This document shows positions 8,935 to 28,508 of a stretch of DNA of 33,177 nt, in pieces. The notes beneath the pieces are model-generated. The model was not told the DNA's origin. It searched no databases and saw nothing but the letters and a program-made list of their open reading frames with translations. Position numbers and translations under genes: made by a program. Position 1 is the stretch's first letter. Each line of letters begins with the position of its first letter. The stretch comes from Chloroflexota bacterium (GTDB lineage: Bacteria > Chloroflexota > Dehalococcoidia > UBA2247 > RBG-13-53-26), in NCBI GenBank assembly GCA_003551705.1, contig PUNJ01000040.1:1-33177 (forward strand). Reading direction: 5' to 3'.

Positions 8935-11900
8935 GTGATCTCCCACCGAACCAGGGGAGAATTCTTAACGGACGGAAGGACCACTGGCAGAGAAGCTTTC
9001 TGGAAGCCGGTGGGGCTTCTGGTCTTGCTTCTTTGCGTGCTCCTGGGGTCGATGGGTCTGTCCTCTGCCATGGCCGAGGCCTTGGACTGGGAACCTGCCT
9101 TCTGGAACCATGTTGTTGACTCCGAGGGGAGCACGGGGAAGTGGGCTTCCAGCAGCATCGATAGCGCCGGAAGGCCGGGCATAGCCTATTATGAGGCAGA
9201 AGAACAAGCACTGAAGTATGCTCGCTGGAACGGCAGCACCTGGGAGCTCAGTGTGGTTGCGGCAGGTATCGGCGAATGGGAGGATGTTGACCGGCTGTAC
9301 GTGTCTCTGGCCTACGGACCGGGTGATATGCCGGGCATTGCCTTTCATTCCAGTTTGGGGGACAGGAACAGGCTGGAGTATGCCTATTGGGAGGGCACTT
9401 CGTGGACTGTGGAAGTGGTGGATAGCGGAATTCAAACTGGGATAGGCACATATCCCTCCCTGGCTTTTGATCGTGAATCCCGTCCTTGCATCAGCTATCA
9501 CCATCCGGTAACGGGGCTCAAATATGCGGAGCGCACCGGAGACGCTATGGATGGCTGGCAAACTCAGATTGTGGACATGAGCGGCACGGGAGAATACACA
9601 TCCCTGGCCTTCGATAGTAAGGGAAAACCGGGGATCGCTTACCATGATCGAATCACGAGGTCTCTCAATTACGCTCACTGGTCAGGAGATAGCTGGGAAA
9701 CGAGTGCGGTGGAACTAGGTGGAAATGTGGGCCGGTATGCCTCTCTTGCTTATGGGCCCGGGGACATGCCGCATATTGCCTATTATGACGTCAACAACAC
9801 GGCTCTCAAATACGCCTATCATGACGGTGTCTGGCACACATCATGGGTGGATGGCATGACCTGGGGAGAGAAGGTGGGAGAATATGCCGGGTTGGCCTTG
9901 CAGTGGGATGACTCTTTGCCAGGTAATTCCTGCACTTGGACCATAGCCTACTATGACAGGGCTCGGGAGCGGGGCAAGGTAGCTATAAGGACGGACGGTG
10001 AACCCTGGACGTTTCAGGTTCTTGGTGCAACGGGCCGTTCGGGCGAATTCGTTTCTTTGGCTGCCCAAAATGCAACGGTGGGCATCAGCTATTTCGATCG
10101 GGATGAAACCTGTCTCAGGTTCGCGTTTCTGGACCAGGGCCCCCCGCAAGTATCGATAGATCCTGTTCCAGCCTTCATAAATCCGGATTTCATTATGACT
10201 GGTACATCGGGGGATGATTCAGGTGTAGACCGGGTGACCGTTACAATCAAGGATATGTCTGCCAACAAGTATTGGGACGGCAACGACTGGGACGCAACTG
10301 AAGTATGGTTGACGCCGTCAACTCATAGCCCGGACTGGAGTTGCTGGACCTTTGCCATGATCGGCATAGATTTCGCGGATGGCACTGAATACGTGGTCAA
10401 GGTTGTGGCCAAGGATGTAGTGGGCCGGGTTTCTGATACGGCTTATCAAGTCTTCGTTTTTGATGCGACCAGTCCGTTGGCGGCCATTGCAGACGCTGGT
10501 TACTTCACTGAGTCGCCGGTCGTACTGAATGGTACCTCTTCGGATACCCCGCCGGGAGCGGTTTACCAGGTACAGATCCAAATAATTGACCCGAGCACAG
10601 GGTCCTATTGGAACGGGGACGGTTGGCAGCCAGCCGGCGTATGGCACGAAGCTCGCGGGACATCTTCCTGGAGTTATGAAATTAACGCATCTACCTGGGC
10701 TGATGGCATATACATTGTTCGTGCCAGGTCTTTTGACTTGGCCGGTAATATTTCACCTGTTGTCCAAGCAGAGTTCGGTTACGATGCTACAGACCCTTGT
10801 CTTGTTCCGCAGGAAGTGCCTGAGTACGTAAGTTTCCTTGATGTTGTAAGCGGTACAGCTTCGGATGAAGCTGGCTTAGTCCGCATCGAGGCACAGGTTG
10901 AAGACAAGACTTCGATTCTCTTCTGGAACGGGGTTGGTTGGCAGGAAATGCCTGCCTGGTTGGAGGTAACGGGCACAGAATCGTGGAGTTTGGACACAAG
11001 TGAAGTGTTATGGATGGATGGATCCACCTATTCCATACGTTTCCGGGCTTGGGACGTCGCCGGGCGTTCCAGCGTGGAGGAGACATCCCCGTTTGTTTGG
11101 GACACAACTCCGCCTTGGGTCTCCCTGGACCCGATCCCAGACTATGTAAACCGGTTGACTGCCATAGGCGGATCGGCAGGCGATTTGGCTCCTGGGTTGC
11201 TCAACAGCGTGCAATTGCAAGTCGTTAAGGATGGTTACGCTTACTGGGATGGCGGTACATGGCAGGAAATGCCTGTCTGGAACGTCTTGCCGGGAACAGA
11301 AGCCTGGTGTTATGATTTGCCGGCTCTGGACAACGGCGAGTATACCATCAAAGCAGTATCCGTCGATGAGGCCGGAAACGTTTCCGTTCCAGCTCAGAGA
11401 AGTTTCGTTCTTGATAGCGGACTGCCCCTGGTTGCGGCAGACCCTCTTCCAGAGTGGACAAACTCCATACCTGTGGTGACAGGGACCGCCGCCGATGCTT
11501 ATCCGGGCCGGGTTTGCAGGGTGGAGGTCCAGCTGTTTCAGCATGATGGTGCCTATTGGGATGGCACCGGCTGGCAGTTCGAGCCCGTATGGTTGGAGAC
11601 TGCAGGAACCGAAACCTGGTCCCATGAACTGCCGGCCTTGGAGGATGGGACGTATTTCGTAAAAGTGCGGGCCATTGACAAGGCAGGCAACGTATCGGTG
11701 GAACAGTCCATGAGCTTCTTACTTGATCGAGTCCCGCCCAAAGTGTCTATTGGTCCTCTTGAGGGCTGGTTAACCTCCATTGCCGGCACTGCCCATGACT
11801 CCGGCAGTGGCCTGGAATCAGTGAGCATTGCAGTTATGGATATGGAGACGGGGCTGTTTTGGCATGGTCTCGATTGGAAGGAAGATCAGGCATGGCATTG

Positions 11901-14172
11901 TTGCGGCAGTCCTTTCTGGAGTTTTGATTCGTCCAGCGTTCCATGGGTAGGGGACCGCGAGTACATGATAATTGCCAGGGCGGTGGACAGGGCAGGCAAT
12001 TATTCGGCGGAAACTTGGGCGAACCTTGTACATGATGCGGTCATTCCATCGGTATCCATGCAGAGCATGGCTGGTTATTTGAATGATCTAACCTGTATTG
12101 AGGGTACGGCGACAGATGGTCCGGACGGCCAGCTGAGTAGGGTCGAAGTCCAGATAAGAAATGAGGTGGCCCTGGAATACTGGAATGGCAAGGCCTGGCA
12201 GGAGACGCTTGCCTGGGTGGAAGTTTCAGGTACAGAAAACTGGACCATGGTCATGCCTTATCTGGCGGATGCTCGGTACACTGTAATTGCCAGGTCGGTG
12301 GACAGGGCTGGCAATCTATCGGTTCTGGATTTCGTCACTTTCGTATTTGATACTATGGCGCCGGTCGTGAGCCTGGACCGGATACCGTTGTTTACCAGTG
12401 TGCCGCGACTTGCCGGTTCCGCGTACGACAGCGGCAGCGGCCTGGCAGGTATCCATATAATGGTGCAGGAATCGGGTACGGACAAATACTGGAATGGGGC
12501 ATCTTGGGAAGAAGGCCGGACTTGGCTCCCTGTTGACGGGCTTACGACCTGGCAATACGGGGCGGCGATGCCGGAGTGGAGAGACGGTCTGGAGTATACT
12601 CTCATTGCCAGGGCTGTGGATAGAGCGGGCAACCTGTCTGAAACCGGCGAGGCTGCATTCACTTACGATATAAGTCTGCCCACGGTCGAAATAGAGAGGC
12701 CCCCGAGCCTGGTAAATACCTTGACCTTGATAAGCGGAGAAGCTGCTGACGCAGGGCCCGGTCATGTGGACAGGGTAGAGATTCAAATTAAAAAGGTGGC
12801 GGAATCGCTCTGGTGGAGCGGGATGTCTTGGAAGAACGTGCCGGAGTGGGTCCAAGTATCTGGCAAGCATTCTTGGTCCTATGAAATGCCTCGCCTGGAC
12901 GATAATGAATACAGCGTAGTTGTCCGGGCCGTTGATGCTGCCGGGAACATATCTCCAGAAGACACTTACTGTTTTCGCATGCATACTGTTGCGCCGGATA
13001 TCACCATCAAGGCAATGCCGGATTTCCTGAGGACGCCTGTAGTTGTGCAAGGTACAGCTCAAGACGAATTGGGCATAGAGGCGGTGCAGGTCTGCATCGA
13101 GAACACCACGGGTGCTACTTTCTGGAACGGCTCCGGCTGGGTGGCTGAGGCGGTCTGGCTGGATGCTTTGGGGAATACCACCTGGTCGTACGCCTTGCCG
13201 GATATGTATGACGGACTACACACGGTGTACGCAAGGTCGGTGGACTTGGCCGGCAACTTCTCTGAAGCAAGCGAGCAAAGCTTCATATACAACACCAGTC
13301 CGCCAACGGGTTACGGGCCCGCCCAGCCAGTTGACGGAAGTGAACATGCGTCCATTCGCCCCTTGTTGTGTTCGACCATCGCCGTTAACCAGTTTGCCCG
13401 CTTTGCAGGTGGGATTGACGGTCCAGGTACGCGATACCGTTTTGAAATCGCCCTTGACCCGGACTTCACCATGTCGGTGCAGACGAGTAATTGGTTGGAC
13501 CGTGCTGAATGGGTGCCTTCAACGGTTCTAAAGGGTGACAAGTCGTATTTCTGGAGGGTCAAGGCAAGGGATGAAATGGGCAACGAGGGTCCGTGGTCCG
13601 AGAGCGCCGAGTTTCTCACAGCGCCTGTATTCCTTATATCGCCCCCGGGGGAGGCTGTAATAGAGGGGTTTTCCGGCGACATAAAGCTCACCGTTTCTGC
13701 GCTTAGTACGCTGGACAATGTGAAGATGGCTGTGGTCCATGTAGCTGGGGCTTCTCATGAAATTCCTTGCGTCTTTGCTCCTGCGTCTCGTAGTTTCGGA
13801 ATTGAGGGTTTCACTTCTTCGGGGAAGGCGCTCGATGAACTGGATACCACATTCAGGGTTGTTGTGCGTTATGGTGAGGCCGATCTGGTAGCGGCTGGTG
13901 ATGATGCCTCGCGTTTAAGGCTTGCCTATTGGGACCGCGCCCTGGGAAGATGGGAGGAGCTACCAACCAGGATTGATCAGCGAGACCGGACCCTGACGGC
14001 GACAGGGGCCCATCTTGGTGAATGGAGAATACTGGTGGGGCCGCCCAGAGAGGGCATGGCCGTGTGGGCGCTGGTAGTGATAATCTTGGATGGTGTGCTG
14101 GTGAGCATGGTGGCCGGCTTCATGGTCTGGCGGCAACTGGGTACTGTTAGAAAGACGCAGTATTCCGGGTAA
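8935..14172 (+). CDS. giant membrane-anchored surface protein, propeller plus ten Ig-like repeats (1745 aa)
   Basis: An N-terminal signal/anchor helix (~residues 24-47, GLLVLLLCVLLGSMGLSSAMA) leads into about seven ~45-residue repeats (residues ~60-400) with the pattern SLAY/F-x-G-x-P-x-IAYYD...LKYAxW, suggesting a seven-bladed beta-propeller. Ten tandem ~105-residue Ig-like repeats follow (403-1456), each with VSGTAxD, YWNGxxW, W...GTxxWSY, Y.V.ARAVDxAGNxS and F.xD motifs, then an FN3-like domain (~1457-1560), a C-terminal beta domain and a closing transmembrane helix (~1706-1730) with a short basic tail. The protein should be displayed outside the cell as a long stalk with a distal or proximal propeller; adhesion or ligand binding is inferred. 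The start is GTG 8935 with only a weak AGG upstream. Confidence 0.88.
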   Translation: MISHRTRGEFLTDGRTTGREAFWKPVGLLVLLLCVLLGSMGLSSAMAEALDWEPAFWNHVVDSEGSTGKWASSSIDSAGRPGIAYYEAEEQALKYARWNGSTWELSVVAAGIGEWEDVDRLYVSLAYGPGDMPGIAFHSSLGDRNRLEYAYWEGTSWTVEVVDSGIQTGIGTYPSLAFDRESRPCISYHHPVTGLKYAERTGDAMDGWQTQIVDMSGTGEYTSLAFDSKGKPGIAYHDRITRSLNYAHWSGDSWETSAVELGGNVGRYASLAYGPGDMPHIAYYDVNNTALKYAYHDGVWHTSWVDGMTWGEKVGEYAGLALQWDDSLPGNSCTWTIAYYDRARERGKVAIRTDGEPWTFQVLGATGRSGEFVSLAAQNATVGISYFDRDETCLRFAFLDQGPPQVSIDPVPAFINPDFIMTGTSGDDSGVDRVTVTIKDMSANKYWDGNDWDATEVWLTPSTHSPDWSCWTFAMIGIDFADGTEYVVKVVAKDVVGRVSDTAYQVFVFDATSPLAAIADAGYFTESPVVLNGTSSDTPPGAVYQVQIQIIDPSTGSYWNGDGWQPAGVWHEARGTSSWSYEINASTWADGIYIVRARSFDLAGNISPVVQAEFGYDATDPCLVPQEVPEYVSFLDVVSGTASDEAGLVRIEAQVEDKTSILFWNGVGWQEMPAWLEVTGTESWSLDTSEVLWMDGSTYSIRFRAWDVAGRSSVEETSPFVWDTTPPWVSLDPIPDYVNRLTAIGGSAGDLAPGLLNSVQLQVVKDGYAYWDGGTWQEMPVWNVLPGTEAWCYDLPALDNGEYTIKAVSVDEAGNVSVPAQRSFVLDSGLPLVAADPLPEWTNSIPVVTGTAADAYPGRVCRVEVQLFQHDGAYWDGTGWQFEPVWLETAGTETWSHELPALEDGTYFVKVRAIDKAGNVSVEQSMSFLLDRVPPKVSIGPLEGWLTSIAGTAHDSGSGLESVSIAVMDMETGLFWHGLDWKEDQAWHCCGSPFWSFDSSSVPWVGDREYMIIARAVDRAGNYSAETWANLVHDAVIPSVSMQSMAGYLNDLTCIEGTATDGPDGQLSRVEVQIRNEVALEYWNGKAWQETLAWVEVSGTENWTMVMPYLADARYTVIARSVDRAGNLSVLDFVTFVFDTMAPVVSLDRIPLFTSVPRLAGSAYDSGSGLAGIHIMVQESGTDKYWNGASWEEGRTWLPVDGLTTWQYGAAMPEWRDGLEYTLIARAVDRAGNLSETGEAAFTYDISLPTVEIERPPSLVNTLTLISGEAADAGPGHVDRVEIQIKKVAESLWWSGMSWKNVPEWVQVSGKHSWSYEMPRLDDNEYSVVVRAVDAAGNISPEDTYCFRMHTVAPDITIKAMPDFLRTPVVVQGTAQDELGIEAVQVCIENTTGATFWNGSGWVAEAVWLDALGNTTWSYALPDMYDGLHTVYARSVDLAGNFSEASEQSFIYNTSPPTGYGPAQPVDGSEHASIRPLLCSTIAVNQFARFAGGIDGPGTRYRFEIALDPDFTMSVQTSNWLDRAEWVPSTVLKGDKSYFWRVKARDEMGNEGPWSESAEFLTAPVFLISPPGEAVIEGFSGDIKLTVSALSTLDNVKMAVVHVAGASHEIPCVFAPASRSFGIEGFTSSGKALDELDTTFRVVVRYGEADLVAAGDDASRLRLAYWDRALGRWEELPTRIDQRDRTLTATGAHLGEWRILVGPPREGMAVWALVVIILDGVLVSMVAGFMVWRQLGTVRKTQYSG
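10141..13302 (+). repeat. ten tandem ~316-bp repeats encoding Ig-like domains
   Basis: Ten consecutive coding units, each ~105 codons, start at the Pro-x-V boundary. They share the landmarks YWNG/YWDG-x-x-W, W-x-x-x-x-G-T-x-x-W and D-x-AGN-x-S. They are clear at protein level but diverged at DNA level, so this is an old amplified domain array rather than a recent expansion. Confidence 0.85.
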
Positions 14173-15881: not shown

Positions 15882-15972
15882 TTAGTTTGTTCTGTATGGC
15901 TATATGAGTCCGTAGACCGGAGGTTTTGCCGGTACGCCTCGATTATGGCGCACAGTCCGGCTGCACCGGCTT

Positions 15973-16683
15973 CTAAGAAAATGCCATATCCGGCTTCCAG
16001 ACTTGCCAGACTTTGCCGACGAGATCGGGGCTGGGCTTGAGGGTGGGCTTGCCCGGCTGCCATCCGGAAGGTGTTGCTTCGCCTGTAGCACGAACATGCT
16101 GGAAGGCCTTAATCTGGCGAATGAATTCTCCGACATTGCGTCCAACGGGCGGCGTCAGTACTTCCATGGCTTGGATAACTCCATCGGGATCGATTATGAA
16201 GCGGCCTCGTACGTCAACGCCGGCTTCCTCATCGTAGACGCCGTAGACCGTACCGATACGTCCGCCGGCATCGGAGAGCATGGGAAAGGGTATGCCGCCG
16301 GGGACCATCTTGGAAAGTTCTTCTTCCTGCCATATTTTATGAGAGAAACGGCTGTCCAAGCTCATCGATAGCACCTGAACCCCGAGGGATTCGAGTTCGG
16401 CATGCTTGACGGCAACTGCCGACAATTCCGTCGGTCAGACGAAGGTGAAATCGCCGGGGTAGAAGCAGAGCACGACCCACTTCCCTCTGTAATCGGAGAG
16501 CTTGATGTTTTTGAAATTACCGTCCACGTAAGCCGCGGCTTCAAAGTCCGGGGCTGGTTTACCTATTCGGGCTATCATTTTGGTCGCCTCCTTCATGCTT
16601 TCCTCATCGTCGGCTGGCGGTCTTGCTGTCTCTGCGATTGGACCTTTGGATGGTTTGACGCATCCTTCTTGTTCTTCGGTCAT
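15973..16683 (-). CDS. selenocysteine-containing peroxiredoxin, in-frame TGA as Sec83 (236 aa)
   Basis: Two abutting frames join into one AhpC/TSA peroxiredoxin when the TGA at 16435-16437 is read as selenocysteine. The active site reads [12 protein letters not shown], exactly where the peroxidatic Cys sits in the family (PxxxTxxC). Downstream come [19 protein letters not shown], the conserved Arg region [11 protein letters not shown] and the family tail GWQPGKPT. It should reduce hydroperoxides. The normal resolving-Cys motif (VCP) is ATP (Thr204), and no Cys follows Sec83; only Cys8 and Cys73 remain, so reduction must use another thiol. The start is ATG 16683 with AAGGAG five bases upstream, and a leader of ~35 residues precedes the fold. 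Standard annotation would call two fragments or a pseudogene. sel genes are not in this window. Confidence 0.88.
16406..16425 (-). promoter_or_regulatory. SECIS-like hairpin for selenocysteine insertion
   Basis: Reverse strand, nine bases after the TGA: TTG-T-CGGC, apical loop AGTT, GCCG-T-CAA. This gives 7 Watson-Crick pairs with one T-T mismatch. The apical loop begins 17 bases after TGA and has G at its second position, consistent with the bacterial SECIS consensus as I know it (loop 16-37 nt from UGA, early loop G, short GC stem). An alternative 5-bp outer pairing (16408-16412 with 16428-16432) competes with it. Confidence 0.65.
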
Positions 16684-16733
16684 GTTTCTCCTTAATCCCA
16701 TTTGCCTGGATTCTCTGCGGGCAATCTTATCCT

Positions 16734-16919: not shown

Positions 16920-18161
16920 ATGGGCAGACGGTTTTTCCGGGGACTGGGACTTGCACTTCTGTGCATGCTGCTGATTGGTTCAACAGTACTGGTAGCTTGT
17001 TCTGATGGCGAGGGGGATAACGAAGTCCTCATTGGCATACTGACGGACTTCACTGGCCCAGCAGCATTTGCTACCACTCCCACCTATGAATCGTTCAGGC
17101 ACGCCGTCAGATGGAGCCTGGAACAGGACCCCATCCCGGGTTTGGAAGTCAAATACCTTACCTATGACCAGCGAACAGATCCGGCCCGGGTTTCGCCAGG
17201 TTATATGTGGCTGCAGGGACGTGGTGTGGATATGATGTATATCATGAGTCCTACCGATAATGCTATTCTTGCTGAGGATGTGATCAGAGACCAGATGCCC
17301 GTCTTGGGCAATGCCATTGCGGAAGAGATCGGTGATAACCCCAACATATTCAATTTCTGGGGCTCTGATGGACATACCACGGAAGGGGCCGCCATGTGGA
17401 TCATGGAAAACTGGGACTACGAAGGAGAAGGGCGCCCTCCCAAGTTGGCCCATTTCAGCTGGACGCATCCAACGGGAGGTTTCCATCAAGCTGGTTTTGC
17501 CAGGATGCTGGATTGGTATCCCGATAAGTTCGAATGGCTGGGCGTAGAAGCTCCTCCCATAGGCTCGACGGGCTTTTCGGCTGAAATCAGCCGGATCAGG
17601 AATGCCGATTTCATCTTCATCACGCCGGTGGGTGCCATGATGGCTTCATTTATGAGAGAGGCGAGGGACCGGGGATACACCGGTGCATTTGTGAGCGGGA
17701 CCAACCAGTTTCCGGGTTACTGGCCTCTGGTGCAGGGTGCCGTGGCGGCAGACAAGCTCTATGAGTGCTACTTCCTCTATTATACCCCCTGGTGGACTGA
17801 CGATGTGCCTTTCATCCAGGAGGCCAAAGAGGCTATCGAAAAATATTCGAGGAATCCGGAGGTAATCTATACCGGCGGTGGTCCTTCGGGATGGTCCTGC
17901 GGTTTAATTGCCATCAACGCAATCAGGATCGCAGCGGAGAACGTGGGAATTGAAAACATCGACAGGATGGCCCTCTTGGACGCTTTCGCCAGCGTAGAAT
18001 TGGACCTAGAGGGATTCGGCAATGTATGGAAGATAACGGAAGATGATGAATGGAATGTGTTCTGCCGCACAGTAAAGGCGTACAAGTGGGATTTGGAGAC
18101 GTTAAAATGGATGGATGCCGGGACTGAGTGGAGTACACCTCCTTCACTGGCGCGTGACTAA
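16920..18161 (+). CDS. ABC-type substrate-binding lipoprotein, copy 1 (413 aa)
   Basis: The N-terminus is a lipoprotein signal: MGRR, a hydrophobic stretch, then LVAC with Cys27 as the lipidation site. The mature part starts with VLIGILTDFTGPAA, the first strand of the branched-chain amino acid type of periplasmic-binding proteins (Peripla_BP_6), followed by the two-lobed pattern with a DQRTDPARVSPGYMWL segment and VSGTNQFPGYWPL. GGGAGG is a few bases before ATG. It would capture a small solute at the outer membrane face. No permease or ATPase genes are near, so it may work with distant LivHMGF-type partners or as a receptor. A strong terminator follows and a close paralogue comes next. Confidence 0.88.
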   Translation: MGRRFFRGLGLALLCMLLIGSTVLVACSDGEGDNEVLIGILTDFTGPAAFATTPTYESFRHAVRWSLEQDPIPGLEVKYLTYDQRTDPARVSPGYMWLQGRGVDMMYIMSPTDNAILAEDVIRDQMPVLGNAIAEEIGDNPNIFNFWGSDGHTTEGAAMWIMENWDYEGEGRPPKLAHFSWTHPTGGFHQAGFARMLDWYPDKFEWLGVEAPPIGSTGFSAEISRIRNADFIFITPVGAMMASFMREARDRGYTGAFVSGTNQFPGYWPLVQGAVAADKLYECYFLYYTPWWTDDVPFIQEAKEAIEKYSRNPEVIYTGGGPSGWSCGLIAINAIRIAAENVGIENIDRMALLDAFASVELDLEGFGNVWKITEDDEWNVFCRTVKAYKWDLETLKWMDAGTEWSTPPSLARD

Positions 18162-18473: not shown

Positions 18474-19718
18474 ATGGGCAGACGGTTGTTCCGGAGGGTG
18501 ACACTGATGTTGCTCGGGGTGTTGTTGATTGCTTCCACTATCGTGGCGGCATGCGGCGAGGGTGAAGCAAGAATAGGCGAGATACAGATAGGCATTCTGA
18601 CGGACTTCACGGGGCCGGCAGCCTTTGCAACGGTGCCGACAGTTGATTCCTTCAAACATGCTATCAGGTGGTCCCTGGAGCAGGACCCGATAGAAGGGCT
18701 GGAGATCAAGTACGTTTCCTATGACCAGAGGACGGACCCTGCCAGGGTATCGCCGGGTTACATGTGGCTGAAGGGACGCGGAGTGGACATGATGTATATC
18801 ATGAGTCCAACAGACAACTCCATTCTGGCCGACGACTATAGGAAGGATGGGATGCCGGTCATTGCTTCAGCCGTGTCCGAAGAGGTTGGTCCTCATCCAA
18901 ACATATTCTACCTGTGGGGTTCGGACGGTCACGGTACCGAGGCCGTGACGCAGTGGATCATGGACAACTGGGACTATGAGGGGGAGGGCCGTCTTCCGAG
19001 GATCGGCCATCTGAGCTGGACCCATCCAACGGGAGGTTTCCATCAAGCTGGTTTTAACAGGATGGTCGAGTGGCATTCTGACAAGTTCGACTGGGTGGGC
19101 GTGGAAAGCGTGCCTATCGGTTCCACCGGTTTCGCCGGCGAAATCAGCCGGCTGCGGACAGCCGATTTTATTTTCACAACCCCGGTGGGCGCAATGTTGG
19201 CCACTTTCATGCGAGAAGCCAGAGATCGGGGATATACGGGAGCCTTCGTTAGTGGGGCCAACCAGTATCCAGGTTACTGGCCGCTGGTAAAGGGTGCAGT
19301 GGCCGCCCACCAACTCTACGAGTGCTACTTCCTCTACTGGACTCCCTGGTGGACCGAGGATGTTCCTTACATACTAGAAGCCAGGGAAGCCACCGATAAG
19401 TATGCCAGGAATCCGGAGTTGATCTACACGGGCGGTGGTCCGGCAGGGTGGTCGACAGGAGTATTGACTATAGAGGCTATTAGACTGGCGGTGGAAAAGG
19501 TTGGACTGGACAATATTGACAGGGCCGCCATACTCGAGGGTTTCGAATCGATTGAGATGGACATCGAAGGTTTCGGCAATACATGGAAAACTACCCCGGA
19601 CGACGACTGGAATGTGTACTGCCGCACGACGAAGGCCTACCAGTGGGACTTGGAGAAGTTAGAGTGGATTGACGCGGGGACTGATTGGATAACACCCCCG
19701 TCTCTGGCTCGCGACTAA
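18474..19718 (+). CDS. ABC-type substrate-binding lipoprotein, copy 2 (414 aa)
   Basis: A tandem paralogue of the gene before it, nearly colinear: MGRRLFRR start, lipobox VAAC with Cys27, IGILTDFTGPAAFATVPT, DQRTDPARVSPGYMWLKGRG, MMYIMSPTDN, SWTHPTGGFHQAGF, GANQYPGYWPL and the closing TPPSLARD. GCAGGAGG lies before ATG 18474. Differences cluster between these blocks, so ligand preference may have shifted. A 33-base stretch (19023-19055) is identical to copy 1 while flanks differ. No transporter subunit is adjacent and its own terminator follows, implying separate regulation. Both should be anchored on the outer face of the membrane. Confidence 0.88.
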   Translation: MGRRLFRRVTLMLLGVLLIASTIVAACGEGEARIGEIQIGILTDFTGPAAFATVPTVDSFKHAIRWSLEQDPIEGLEIKYVSYDQRTDPARVSPGYMWLKGRGVDMMYIMSPTDNSILADDYRKDGMPVIASAVSEEVGPHPNIFYLWGSDGHGTEAVTQWIMDNWDYEGEGRLPRIGHLSWTHPTGGFHQAGFNRMVEWHSDKFDWVGVESVPIGSTGFAGEISRLRTADFIFTTPVGAMLATFMREARDRGYTGAFVSGANQYPGYWPLVKGAVAAHQLYECYFLYWTPWWTEDVPYILEAREATDKYARNPELIYTGGGPAGWSTGVLTIEAIRLAVEKVGLDNIDRAAILEGFESIEMDIEGFGNTWKTTPDDDWNVYCRTTKAYQWDLEKLEWIDAGTDWITPPSLARD

Positions 19719-20342: not shown

Positions 20343-21242
20343 TCAAGAAAGACATTGCCTGAAATAGTCAATATAACCGGCAGGATCGAATTTGAAGTTC
20401 TGCAGCAGCTTCGGGTCCGCGGACTGCTCTTCCAGGTGCCGTCCCAGTTGTTGCAGGATTTCCTTATCGCTCTTACCTTCCTCTACACACTTATGGACTA
20501 TGTCACGAAAGGCCCTGCTGTTGCCCCGGACCTCTTCGATAAGTCGATTCGACGGGTTGGCCCTCTCACCGATATGGGAGAAGAACAGCATTTCAGGACC
20601 GAGTTGGGACAGCCTTTCGATGGAGTCAAGGTAAAGATACGGGTCGAAGGGAGGTATTCCTGCCGGAAGAACGATCTCCGAATTATCGTCCACAGGAAAT
20701 CCCAACGCCTCTCCACAGAACAGTCCCCTGGTCAGGGTGTCCATTATGGAAATGTGGTGGTAGGCGTGTCCAGGGGTATAGTAGACGGACAGGGTGCGGC
20801 CGTTCTGCTGGAAGGTTTGACCGTCTGCGACGGGCTGTACCTGCGCTTCGGGCACGGGCATAACAGGGCCAAAGAAGTCCTCGCAATCGGCGCCGAAAAC
20901 CATGCGAGTTGCCTGGATCAGCCTGGCGGGATCTACCACGTGCCGTGCCACTCTGGGGTGGACCACTATCTTCGCCCACGGTAGCTCCTTTGCCAGATAC
21001 CCAATGGCACCGGCATGATCGACGTGGATATGGGTGGGTATGATATGAGAGACTCGTTCCAGGTCCATGCCAAGTTCACCAGAGCTTCTGACAAGTCTGG
21101 CAGCTGCGGTGGTTGCACCTGGTTCAATGAGGATCAGCCTGTCCATCCCCACAATGTAGGTTACCTGTGGCATTTCGAAATGCGGTACTTTGCCGCAATC
21201 GATGATGTAGGTGTCTTTAGCAAGTTCTCTAATCTCCGTCAT
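20343..21242 (-). CDS. MBL-fold metallo-hydrolase, copy 1 (299 aa)
   Basis: The metal-binding motif THIHVDHAG (His71, His73, Asp75, His76), a second His in PGHAYHH (residue 159) and a late His in FFSHIGE define the metallo-beta-lactamase fold. The bridging acid, normally Asp, is Glu178 here (FCGEALG), whereas the paralogue at 23000-23899 keeps Asp, so metal coordination may be altered. It has a ~100-residue C-terminal helical extension and no signal peptide. Substrate is unknown; glyoxalase-II-like, lactonase or sulfatase-type activities all occur in this fold. It follows the HEAT-repeat gene by 22 bases, so the two are likely co-transcribed. Confidence 0.87.
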   Translation of the reverse strand: MTEIRELAKDTYIIDCGKVPHFEMPQVTYIVGMDRLILIEPGATTAAARLVRSSGELGMDLERVSHIIPTHIHVDHAGAIGYLAKELPWAKIVVHPRVARHVVDPARLIQATRMVFGADCEDFFGPVMPVPEAQVQPVADGQTFQQNGRTLSVYYTPGHAYHHISIMDTLTRGLFCGEALGFPVDDNSEIVLPAGIPPFDPYLYLDSIERLSQLGPEMLFFSHIGERANPSNRLIEEVRGNSRAFRDIVHKCVEEGKSDKEILQQLGRHLEEQSADPKLLQNFKFDPAGYIDYFRQCLS

Positions 21243-27005: not shown

Positions 27006-28508
27006 TCAATCGTACCTGGTCGAGAACCGTTTGTTCTCATCCTTGCACAGTAGTCGGACAGCTTGGCGACCTGAGTAAAGGGCAGAGGGGACAGTGCCGC
27101 CAGGCATAACCCACTGCCCTGCCATGTAGAAGCTGGACAGTCCCGGCAGTGTCCGGGGCAAACTCTGCTTCAGGATTTCCGGAGTGGGCATCCATCCCAT
27201 GTACGCCCCGTGGTGATTCATGGTATGACGCCAGGTTGTGAAAGGCGTGGCTACATCAACCATTTCAACCAGAGGCGAGATGCCGGGATACACCCCTTCA
27301 ATTCTCGAAAGGACCTCCGAGGCCACCTTCTCTTTCTCTGTCTGGTAAAGGCGGTGGTCCCGGCGGAGTTCGTTCCAATGGTCCCAGTCTGACTCGAAGC
27401 GGACCTGCAGAACGGTCTTGCCAGGTGGTGAGAACTTGCGGCTGTGATTATATATGCGTAACCGCATGTAGTCCGCGGAACTTTTGCCTGTCACCAGTGG
27501 CTGGGGGAGTTTGATCGTGCTCAACCAGGGTTCGCCTTGAAAAGAACTTACTACCCCAAGACTTGTTATTACCTGAGGACGAATAATCTCTGAGTTCCGA
27601 AATCTGCGTTTCACGCTCTCATCCATATAGCGCCCGCTCAACAGCCTGAGGACCGTGTTGTAGCTATCTCCGGCCGATATTACCGTGTCGGCATGGTGCT
27701 GGCTACCATCGGAAAGCTGGATCCCTGTCGCCTTTCCTTTCTCCACCAGTATTCCTTCCACGGTGCTCGCGTAATTCACATTTCCACCCAGGTTCTTATA
27801 GCGTTCCACGAGCGGTTGGACGAAAGTGGAGCAGCCACCATCAAGTAGTGCGAGTTGATCATCTGCATGGAGGGCCAGCAGGAGGACCAGGAACCACACT
27901 GGGGCGTCAGGGACATATAAGGTCTCCAGTATGTGCTTCAACCAGGGTTCATGTATAACGCGTGCGTAGCTTCTTATCGAGGAGGCATTGGTTCCTGAGA
28001 ACTCATGCAGAATCCGGCGAAATCGCCATCCGAATTTGATATGATCGAGGTTGTTGTACAACTCGGCAGGTCTCTTCAGGCCGATATGGCTCAGGTCCAG
28101 GCCCTGCAGCCGGCGCGCGCTGGACAACAGGTGTTCTATTTTTCCGTGGTCCGATGGGAAAAGCATACCAAGCTCTTCTCCCAAACTTTCCAAATCAGCC
28201 GTAATCTCGAGTTTGCGGCCGCTCTCAAGGTCTACAAACCTGCCCAGGCTGGGGAGGTCCGCAAAAACACACGTATCCTGGATACCAAGCTCACGATAGA
28301 TTCTGTTCAGGGCTGTTCCGGCTTTGTGGCCCGTGACCAGCTGAAAACCGCCGTCTATCAGGTAGTTCTTCCTTACCCAGGAAGCCGCCACGCCGCCGGC
28401 TGCTGTGTGATGCTCGAATATCTGGCTCTGAAAGCCGTTCATCTGGGCATAACAACCGGTGGCAAGCCCGGCCAGTCCCGCCCCAATTATGATGATAGAT
28501 CCAGACAT
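27006..28508 (-). CDS. FAD-dependent oxidoreductase, CrtI/phytoene desaturase-like (500 aa)
   Basis: The N-terminus has the dinucleotide motif IIIGAGLAGLATGCYAQ, followed by the carotenoid/retinol dehydrogenase pattern GGVAASWVRKNYLIDGG, LDGGCSTFVQPLVERYKNLGG in the middle, and the C-terminal FAD motif FYMAGQWVMPGGTVPSALYSG. This places it in the amine-oxidase/CrtI superfamily, near carotenoid isomerase and desaturase-like proteins. Substrate is unknown, since no carotenoid genes are nearby. No cleavable signal is apparent beyond the Rossmann strand. The ATG at 28508 lacks a clear ribosome site. Confidence 0.87.
   Translation of the reverse strand: MSGSIIIIGAGLAGLATGCYAQMNGFQSQIFEHHTAAGGVAASWVRKNYLIDGGFQLVTGHKAGTALNRIYRELGIQDTCVFADLPSLGRFVDLESGRKLEITADLESLGEELGMLFPSDHGKIEHLLSSARRLQGLDLSHIGLKRPAELYNNLDHIKFGWRFRRILHEFSGTNASSIRSYARVIHEPWLKHILETLYVPDAPVWFLVLLLALHADDQLALLDGGCSTFVQPLVERYKNLGGNVNYASTVEGILVEKGKATGIQLSDGSQHHADTVISAGDSYNTVLRLLSGRYMDESVKRRFRNSEIIRPQVITSLGVVSSFQGEPWLSTIKLPQPLVTGKSSADYMRLRIYNHSRKFSPPGKTVLQVRFESDWDHWNELRRDHRLYQTEKEKVASEVLSRIEGVYPGISPLVEMVDVATPFTTWRHTMNHHGAYMGWMPTPEILKQSLPRTLPGLSSFYMAGQWVMPGGTVPSALYSGRQAVRLLCKDENKRFSTRYD

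Follow-up and report, generated by a model that had tools for sequence, protein, structure and literature searches.

A predicted selenocysteine-containing peroxiredoxin of the PrxU family in an uncultured Dehalococcoidia genome

The window (the whole stretch of 33,177 nucleotides analysed here) is contig C210 of a 2.81-Mb Dehalococcoidia assembly in 212 contigs, 94.8% complete with 3.5% contamination. It carries a peroxiredoxin gene with a TGA in mid-frame, which we read from its sequence, with a probability of about 0.95, as a functional selenoprotein gene and an orthologue of PrxU. An intact selenoprotein gene can show up in raw sequence as a gene with a stop codon inside it, and this is a well-supported example from uncultured Dehalococcoidia, where peroxide defence has, to our knowledge, been little studied. 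A literature search combining selenocysteine, peroxiredoxin and Dehalococcoidia found no paper.

The gene and its family

The gene and its start signals are placed as follows.

15973..16683, minus strand: putative prxU-type selenoprotein gene, 236 residues plus TAG stop (read-through translation, Pfam, NCBIfam)
16435..16437, minus strand: in-frame TGA, predicted selenocysteine (Sec) codon at the peroxidatic position, residue 83 (read-through translation)
16688..16693, minus strand: Shine-Dalgarno-like AAGGAG, 4 nt before the ATG at 16683 (direct sequence reading)

From the ATG at 16683 to the TAG at 15975-15973 there is a single frame of 236 residues (15970-16683, minus strand, TGA read as U). 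The preliminary description had put the TGA exactly at the catalytic Cys of an AhpC/TSA peroxiredoxin (FTFV-U-PTE) with 153 residues beyond it, and read-through translation bears this out: the sole TGA of the frame stands in the context PGDFTFV-U-PTE, and 153 residues follow in the same frame (16434-15976). Family similarity lies on both sides of the TGA: Pfam AhpC-TSA matches residues 40-172 of the protein (E 1.1e-38), and 1-cysPrx_C matches residues 193-226 (E 5.3e-10). The NCBIfam model NF040737 (peroxi_PrxU) is matched at 408.1 bits (cut-off 270, E 1.2e-122) over model positions 2-233 of 233; the score on TIGR03137 (AhpC) is 190.6 bits, under its cut-off of 272. The protein also contains TxxU (T80-F-V-U83), the motif given for Sec-peroxiredoxins in the available part of PMC13188914. 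Because peroxiredoxins with TxxU are an established family (available parts of PMC13188914 and PMC9312934), the enzyme is counted within a known kind: by its sequence it is a member of the already known family PrxU.

The predicted structure has a mean pLDDT of 87.0 and a pTM of 0.84 (the other four models averaged 72-76), with low confidence in tail residues 1-5 and 19-22. Strand 69-74 carries Cys73 near its end, and helix 82-92 carries Sec83 at its start. The best PDB match of the model is human Prx2 (7kj1_A, TM 0.91 by target length). The fold is thus shared with the AhpC/Prx1-type 2-Cys peroxiredoxins, human Prx2 being 46% identical in the structural alignment, but the window protein has Sec for the peroxidatic Cys, a replaced resolving Cys, and an N-terminal tail with Cys8.

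A plasmid collection searched at E <= 1e-50 gave two matches. PrxU of Peptoclostridium (Eubacterium) acidaminophilum DSM 3953 (prxU, WP_084481301.1) is 59.3% identical over 97% of the window protein and scores almost the same on NF040737 (408.0 against 408.1 bits). Its sole Cys and Sec residues are C9, C74 and U84, those of the window protein C8, C73 and U83; both lack the C-terminal resolving Cys, and the residues after Sec are ATE in the former and PTE in the latter. Its gene has the same type of sequence after the TGA as the window, with TCAGCAGTTGCTGA. The organism belongs to another phylum, and its prxU lies on an 808-kb plasmid, where a Fur-family gene stands at a distance of about 2 kb. 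The second match, from a cold-seep Chloroflexota bacterium, is 66.0% identical to the window protein. Such genes had been described beforehand as normally mis-annotated (as two fragments or a pseudogene), which does not always hold: two plasmid records annotate such a gene in full as a single CDS, under the names prxU in NZ_CP007453 and ‘peroxiredoxin’ in CP069395.

The window's genome also encodes a Cys paralogue (G000:C64:10305-10847), 41% identical to the window protein and with Cys in its active site (DFTPVCTTE). It belongs to another family, scoring 264 bits on NF009668 (cut-off 211) and only 140.9 bits on NF040737.

The TGA codon, its hairpin and the selenocysteine machinery

The alignment with relatives that the preliminary description had proposed was made for 104 sequences (the window, class loci L035-L057 and 80 named relatives; two genomes are counted in both sets, L041 being L101 and L042 being L100). 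The peroxidatic codon is TGA in 102 and TGC in two (L054 and L056), which is beyond chance. The proteins of L041 and L042 are identical, over the stretch compared, to records named as Dehalococcoidia or Dehalococcoidales, which identifies the class. The class loci come from a search of 393 Dehalococcoidia genomes, with peroxiredoxin matches at E <= 1e-20 in 108 of them. The TGA count was restricted to the 24 best loci (L034-L057, 48–100% identity), the lower matches being mostly other peroxiredoxins at about 30–44% identity; one fragment (in G101, 73% identical over residues 169-232, the Sec position uncovered) was left out. TGA is found in 22 of these 24 loci, from nine families by label, and TGC in L054 (65% identity) and L056 (48%).

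The scan of named genomes gave at least 591 stretches from at least 585 relatives, of which the best 80 were kept. All 80 have TGA; as they are only the best 80 of at least 585, this count is uninformative on remoter Cys forms. The titles among these best 80, mostly labels of metagenome-assembled genomes, name Deltaproteobacteria, Chloroflexi, Zixiibacteriota, Actinomycetota, Bacillota and Acidobacteriota, and further Nitrospirae, Armatimonadetes, Krumholzibacteriia, Aminicenantes and Pirellulales. Sec-peroxiredoxins had been described beforehand as existing in a few anaerobes. They are not so confined, as is shown by TGA in all of the best 80 of at least 585 named relatives, and equally by a 2016 survey whose table, in the available part of PMC5029168, gives 91 Sec-peroxiredoxins in 78 organisms; 12 Sec-containing peroxiredoxins are counted in the available part of PMC1794560. 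Five of the best 80 of at least 585 relatives (L097, L109, L115, L136 and L139) have a hydrophobic N-terminus resembling a signal peptide or membrane anchor (judged by eye, with start codons set by script); some forms of PrxU may therefore be exported.

Directly 3′ of the TGA lies a hairpin that, on the comparative evidence below, is a bacterial SECIS.

16407..16424, minus strand: bacterial SECIS hairpin as recognised by covariation and RNAalifold, eight nested pairs, apical GU at 16416-16415

With the T of the TGA as nt 1, nt 14-21 pair with nt 24-31. Codons end at nt 15, 18, 21, 24, 27 and 30, so that the pairs 15-30, 18-27 and 21-24 each join two wobble positions and constraint on the protein explains them poorly. 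Of 98 distinct TGA sequences, 90, 98 and 98 respectively form standard pairs at these places, and the maxima in shuffles (2000 each) were 78, 86 and 86. Their mutual information (0.52, 0.69 and 0.68) ranks 1–3 of the 105 wobble-wobble pairs in the stretch, the next highest value being 0.18, and the same three rank at the top among 71 non-redundant sequences. G22 and U23 are invariant in all 98. All 98 encode Val90 by GTT or GTC; among the 1851 Val codons that lie outside the hairpin region (ORFs of the best 80 of at least 585 named relatives), 885 are GTA or GTG. In the Cys form L054 Val90 is GTG and pair 21-24 is broken, a single case. Pair 16-29 is a U-U mismatch in the window, as in 22 of the 98 sequences.

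On 31 diverse sequences the RNAalifold tool predicted this hairpin, with six of its eight pairs, and no other. Scored as eight pairs over the same 31, the helix has 90.7% of cells paired and 30 cells changed on both sides; its covariation score is 0.388, against a shuffle average of 0.155 (none of 500 as high) and 0.099–0.122 for slid versions, of which version -3 has 85.3% of cells paired and merely 0.106 in covariation. Other results are weaker or contrary. Single-sequence folding of the window hairpin was not significant (z -0.5 to -2.3 in four stretches); pairs 18-27 and 20-25 appeared in 86 of 98 single-sequence folds and were missing in 12. RNAalifold run through its Python module returned an empty structure on the 98 and on the 71 sequences, while folding a toy case of three. 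At gathering thresholds the only Rfam match in the window is an SSU rRNA, and no SECIS was reported. The covariation data are strong comparative support for a SECIS of the PrxU family. As in other bacteria the stem-loop sits directly 3′ of the UGA inside the coding sequence, and nothing unusual was seen in it; the GGUC loop form in this family presumably resembles the loop of E. coli fdhF.

The machinery for Sec had been named as a check on the preliminary description, and all four parts are present in the genome.

C30:10320-10413: tRNA-Sec, 77.9 bits, anticodon UCA by ARAGORN
C30:2171-4018: selB, 355.4 bits
C30:4201-5550: selA, 556.3 bits
C189:4867-5793, plus strand: selD, 383.8 bits

Across the class, 256 of all 393 genomes have selA, among them 21 of the 22 that carry the TGA form; the exception among the 22, G295, in which selA was not found, is 79% complete. 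As to the Cys forms, no selA was found in G197 (L054, 64% complete), and G279 (L056) has one. The view that the gene is a functional selenoprotein gene is thus supported by the machinery, the conserved TGA and the covarying hairpin together. The genome's SelD, too, is a predicted selenoprotein, its frame containing one TGA (GAG-U-ACKIG); SelD is a known Sec family, with 38 listed in the available part of PMC1794560.

Proposed catalytic cycle and probable role

SelB would bind the hairpin and bring Sec-tRNA to the UGA, as in established bacterial Sec decoding, to give the 236-residue protein. By analogy with the peroxiredoxin family, the selenolate of Sec83 would then attack H2O2 or an organic hydroperoxide and become a selenenic acid, which a thiol would return to the selenol. 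Typical 2-Cys peroxiredoxins (AhpC/Prx1) are defined by a C-terminal resolving Cys in a VCP motif. Three residues of the window protein bear on this step.

16072..16074, minus strand: Thr204, at the place of the AhpC/Prx1 C-terminal resolving Cys (E-A-T-P here, E-V-C-P in relatives)
16465..16467, minus strand: Cys73 codon (V-L-C-F-Y-P), ten residues before Sec, candidate resolving thiol (conservation)
16660..16662, minus strand: Cys8 codon in an N-terminal tail motif, candidate resolving thiol (conservation of the tail motif)

Since Thr204 replaces the C-terminal Cys, three candidates are proposed for the resolving thiol: Cys8 in the N-terminal tail, which is flexible, Cys73 in the strand that precedes the active site, and a thiol of an external thioredoxin-like protein. 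In the best 80 of at least 585 named relatives the residue at site 204 is T in 59, M in 16, A in 2, and L, I and C in one each (the last L143). Cys73 is present in all 24 class loci L034-L057, Cys forms included, and in 80 of the best 80 of at least 585 named relatives, a count that is partly circular because one of the two scan patterns contained Cys73. The tail motif with Cys8 was found by regular expression in 73 of the best 80 of at least 585; on inspection L074 has it from an earlier start and L128 is a variant, and the tail Cys is absent in five (L092, L101, L115, L132 and L135). It is absent also in three of the 22 TGA-form class members (L041, L048 and L053).

That Cys8 and Cys73 act as resolving thiols is our conjecture. 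In its fullest form, which we offer tentatively and hold to be somewhat improbable as a whole, PrxU would have moved its resolving thiol: the tail Cys (GCVxPAxGP) would bond Sec83 as a selenenylsulfide, with Cys73 as relay or fallback. To the same tentative degree, the AhpC/Prx1-type C-terminal Cys would have given way mostly to Thr or Met. If true, the selenium branch of the peroxiredoxins would have a resolving geometry of its own, shared with P. acidaminophilum PrxU. The alternative that differs in the resolving step alone is a 1-Cys-like cycle, in which an external thioredoxin or other thiol resolves Sec directly and Cys8 and Cys73 serve the structure or some other purpose. Its chances lie only a little short of even: the tail Cys is missing in 5 of the best 80 of at least 585 relatives and 3 of 22 class members, 75 of the best 80 of at least 585 have no Cys at all after Sec, and the family name of NF040737 says thioredoxin-dependent. 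Against such a cycle, every one of the 24 class loci retains Cys73, Cys forms among them, and most members keep the tail Cys; the retention of both suggests shared use. With the C-terminal Cys replaced and two recurrent thiols in view, the question of resolution is reduced to a short, testable list of residues. Our literature search found no text on the resolving mechanism of PrxU; Sohling et al. 2001, reportedly the founding paper on the protein, was outside its reach.

The enzyme's role is likely the defence of an anaerobe against oxygen and peroxide. At 31 of the best 80 of at least 585 named loci, nine clusters of mostly oxygen- and iron-stress genes occur within 4 kb (raw counts; many loci end at contig ends, and one representative per cluster was scanned).

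Rubrerythrin: 11 of the best 80 of at least 585 loci
ODP/flavodoxin: 10
Second rubrerythrin-like group: 10
Fur: 9
Ferritin-like: 8
Desulfoferrodoxin: 8
Rubredoxin-reductase-like: 6
Glutaredoxin-reductase fusions: 6
Ferritin: 5

ABC transporter ATPases, named by eye, also recur, at 9 of the best 80 of at least 585 loci. Among the scanned neighbours in the window no stress genes were found. The gene is flanked there by genes for a TIG/collagen-like protein and for two Peripla_BP_6 proteins; none of them has an evident connection with the peroxiredoxin.

16920-18161 and 18474-19718, plus strand: adjoining Peripla_BP_6 periplasmic-binding proteins

Elsewhere in the window, a frame of 1745 residues (8935-14172, plus strand) with bacterial Ig-like repeats (Big_13 and Big_3 families) probably encodes a large surface protein, and the 5′ end of a bacterial 16S rRNA gene lies at the contig edge (1-87, minus strand), a usual break point of metagenome assemblies.

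Other readings of the TGA and a tRNA-Cys of tRNA-Sec shape

The UGA might instead be read as another amino acid, through a change of code or as Cys by an opal-reading tRNA-Cys of selC* type. The genome does have a tRNA-Cys shaped like tRNA-Sec, and selC* tRNAs with UCA anticodons are known elsewhere (available part of PMC7609411). The one here, however, has a GCA anticodon, and a canonical tRNA-Sec with UCA is present in the same genome. TGA also serves as a stop elsewhere in the window, ending ORFs 20343-21242 (metallo-beta-lactamase fold) and 27006-28508, and the SECIS hairpin and the co-occurrence with selA favour Sec. On these grounds we reject an altered code as very unlikely.

Less probable still is a pseudogene or an error of sequencing or assembly, in which a Cys codon (TGC or TGT) was mutated or misread as TGA to leave a dead fragment of 82 residues: a single base separates the codons and the assembly is split into 212 contigs, but 102 of 104 sequences have TGA at the same codon, another 153 residues of open frame follow it, the TGA forms covary at synonymous (wobble) sites downstream, and pair 21-24 is lost in the Cys form L054 with its Val90 GTG (one case), so that this reading too is rejected.

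The tRNA-Cys of tRNA-Sec shape in the window's genome lies among selenium-related genes on another contig.

G000:C189 3-332: yedF (TIGR03527), incomplete at the contig end
G000:C189 342-436 (L031), plus strand: tRNA-Sec-shaped tRNA with GCA anticodon, between yedF and yedE (ARAGORN)
G000:C189 484-744: truncated selB after the tRNA, with 85% identity to SelB of this genome over the first 87 residues
G000:C189 1974-3101: yedE (TIGR04112)

ARAGORN gives this tRNA an 8-bp acceptor, a 5-bp T stem and a long variable arm. A pattern for such tRNAs made 16 matches in 14 of the 393 class genomes, its reversed control matching in four genomes, and ARAGORN on nine of the matched places found a tRNA-Cys(GCA) at five (G000:C189, G101:C9, G086:C45, G329:C114 and G062:C83). 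A canonical tRNA-Cys was matched in G000, G101 and G086 as well, and the canonical pattern had no match in G329 and G062. The five resemble the selC* tRNA-Cys that the available part of PMC7609411 lists for four other phyla (Firmicutes, Thermodesulfobacteria, Nitrospirae and Proteobacteria), in some cases with selB* downstream. The selC* tRNA-Cys is described there as an 8/4 form with a bulge, whereas ARAGORN drew none for the tRNA of G000:C189. All five have T (U73) at the discriminator, read from the sequence, with yedF within about 2 kb, and in the window's genome the selB copy behind the tRNA is cut after about 87 residues.
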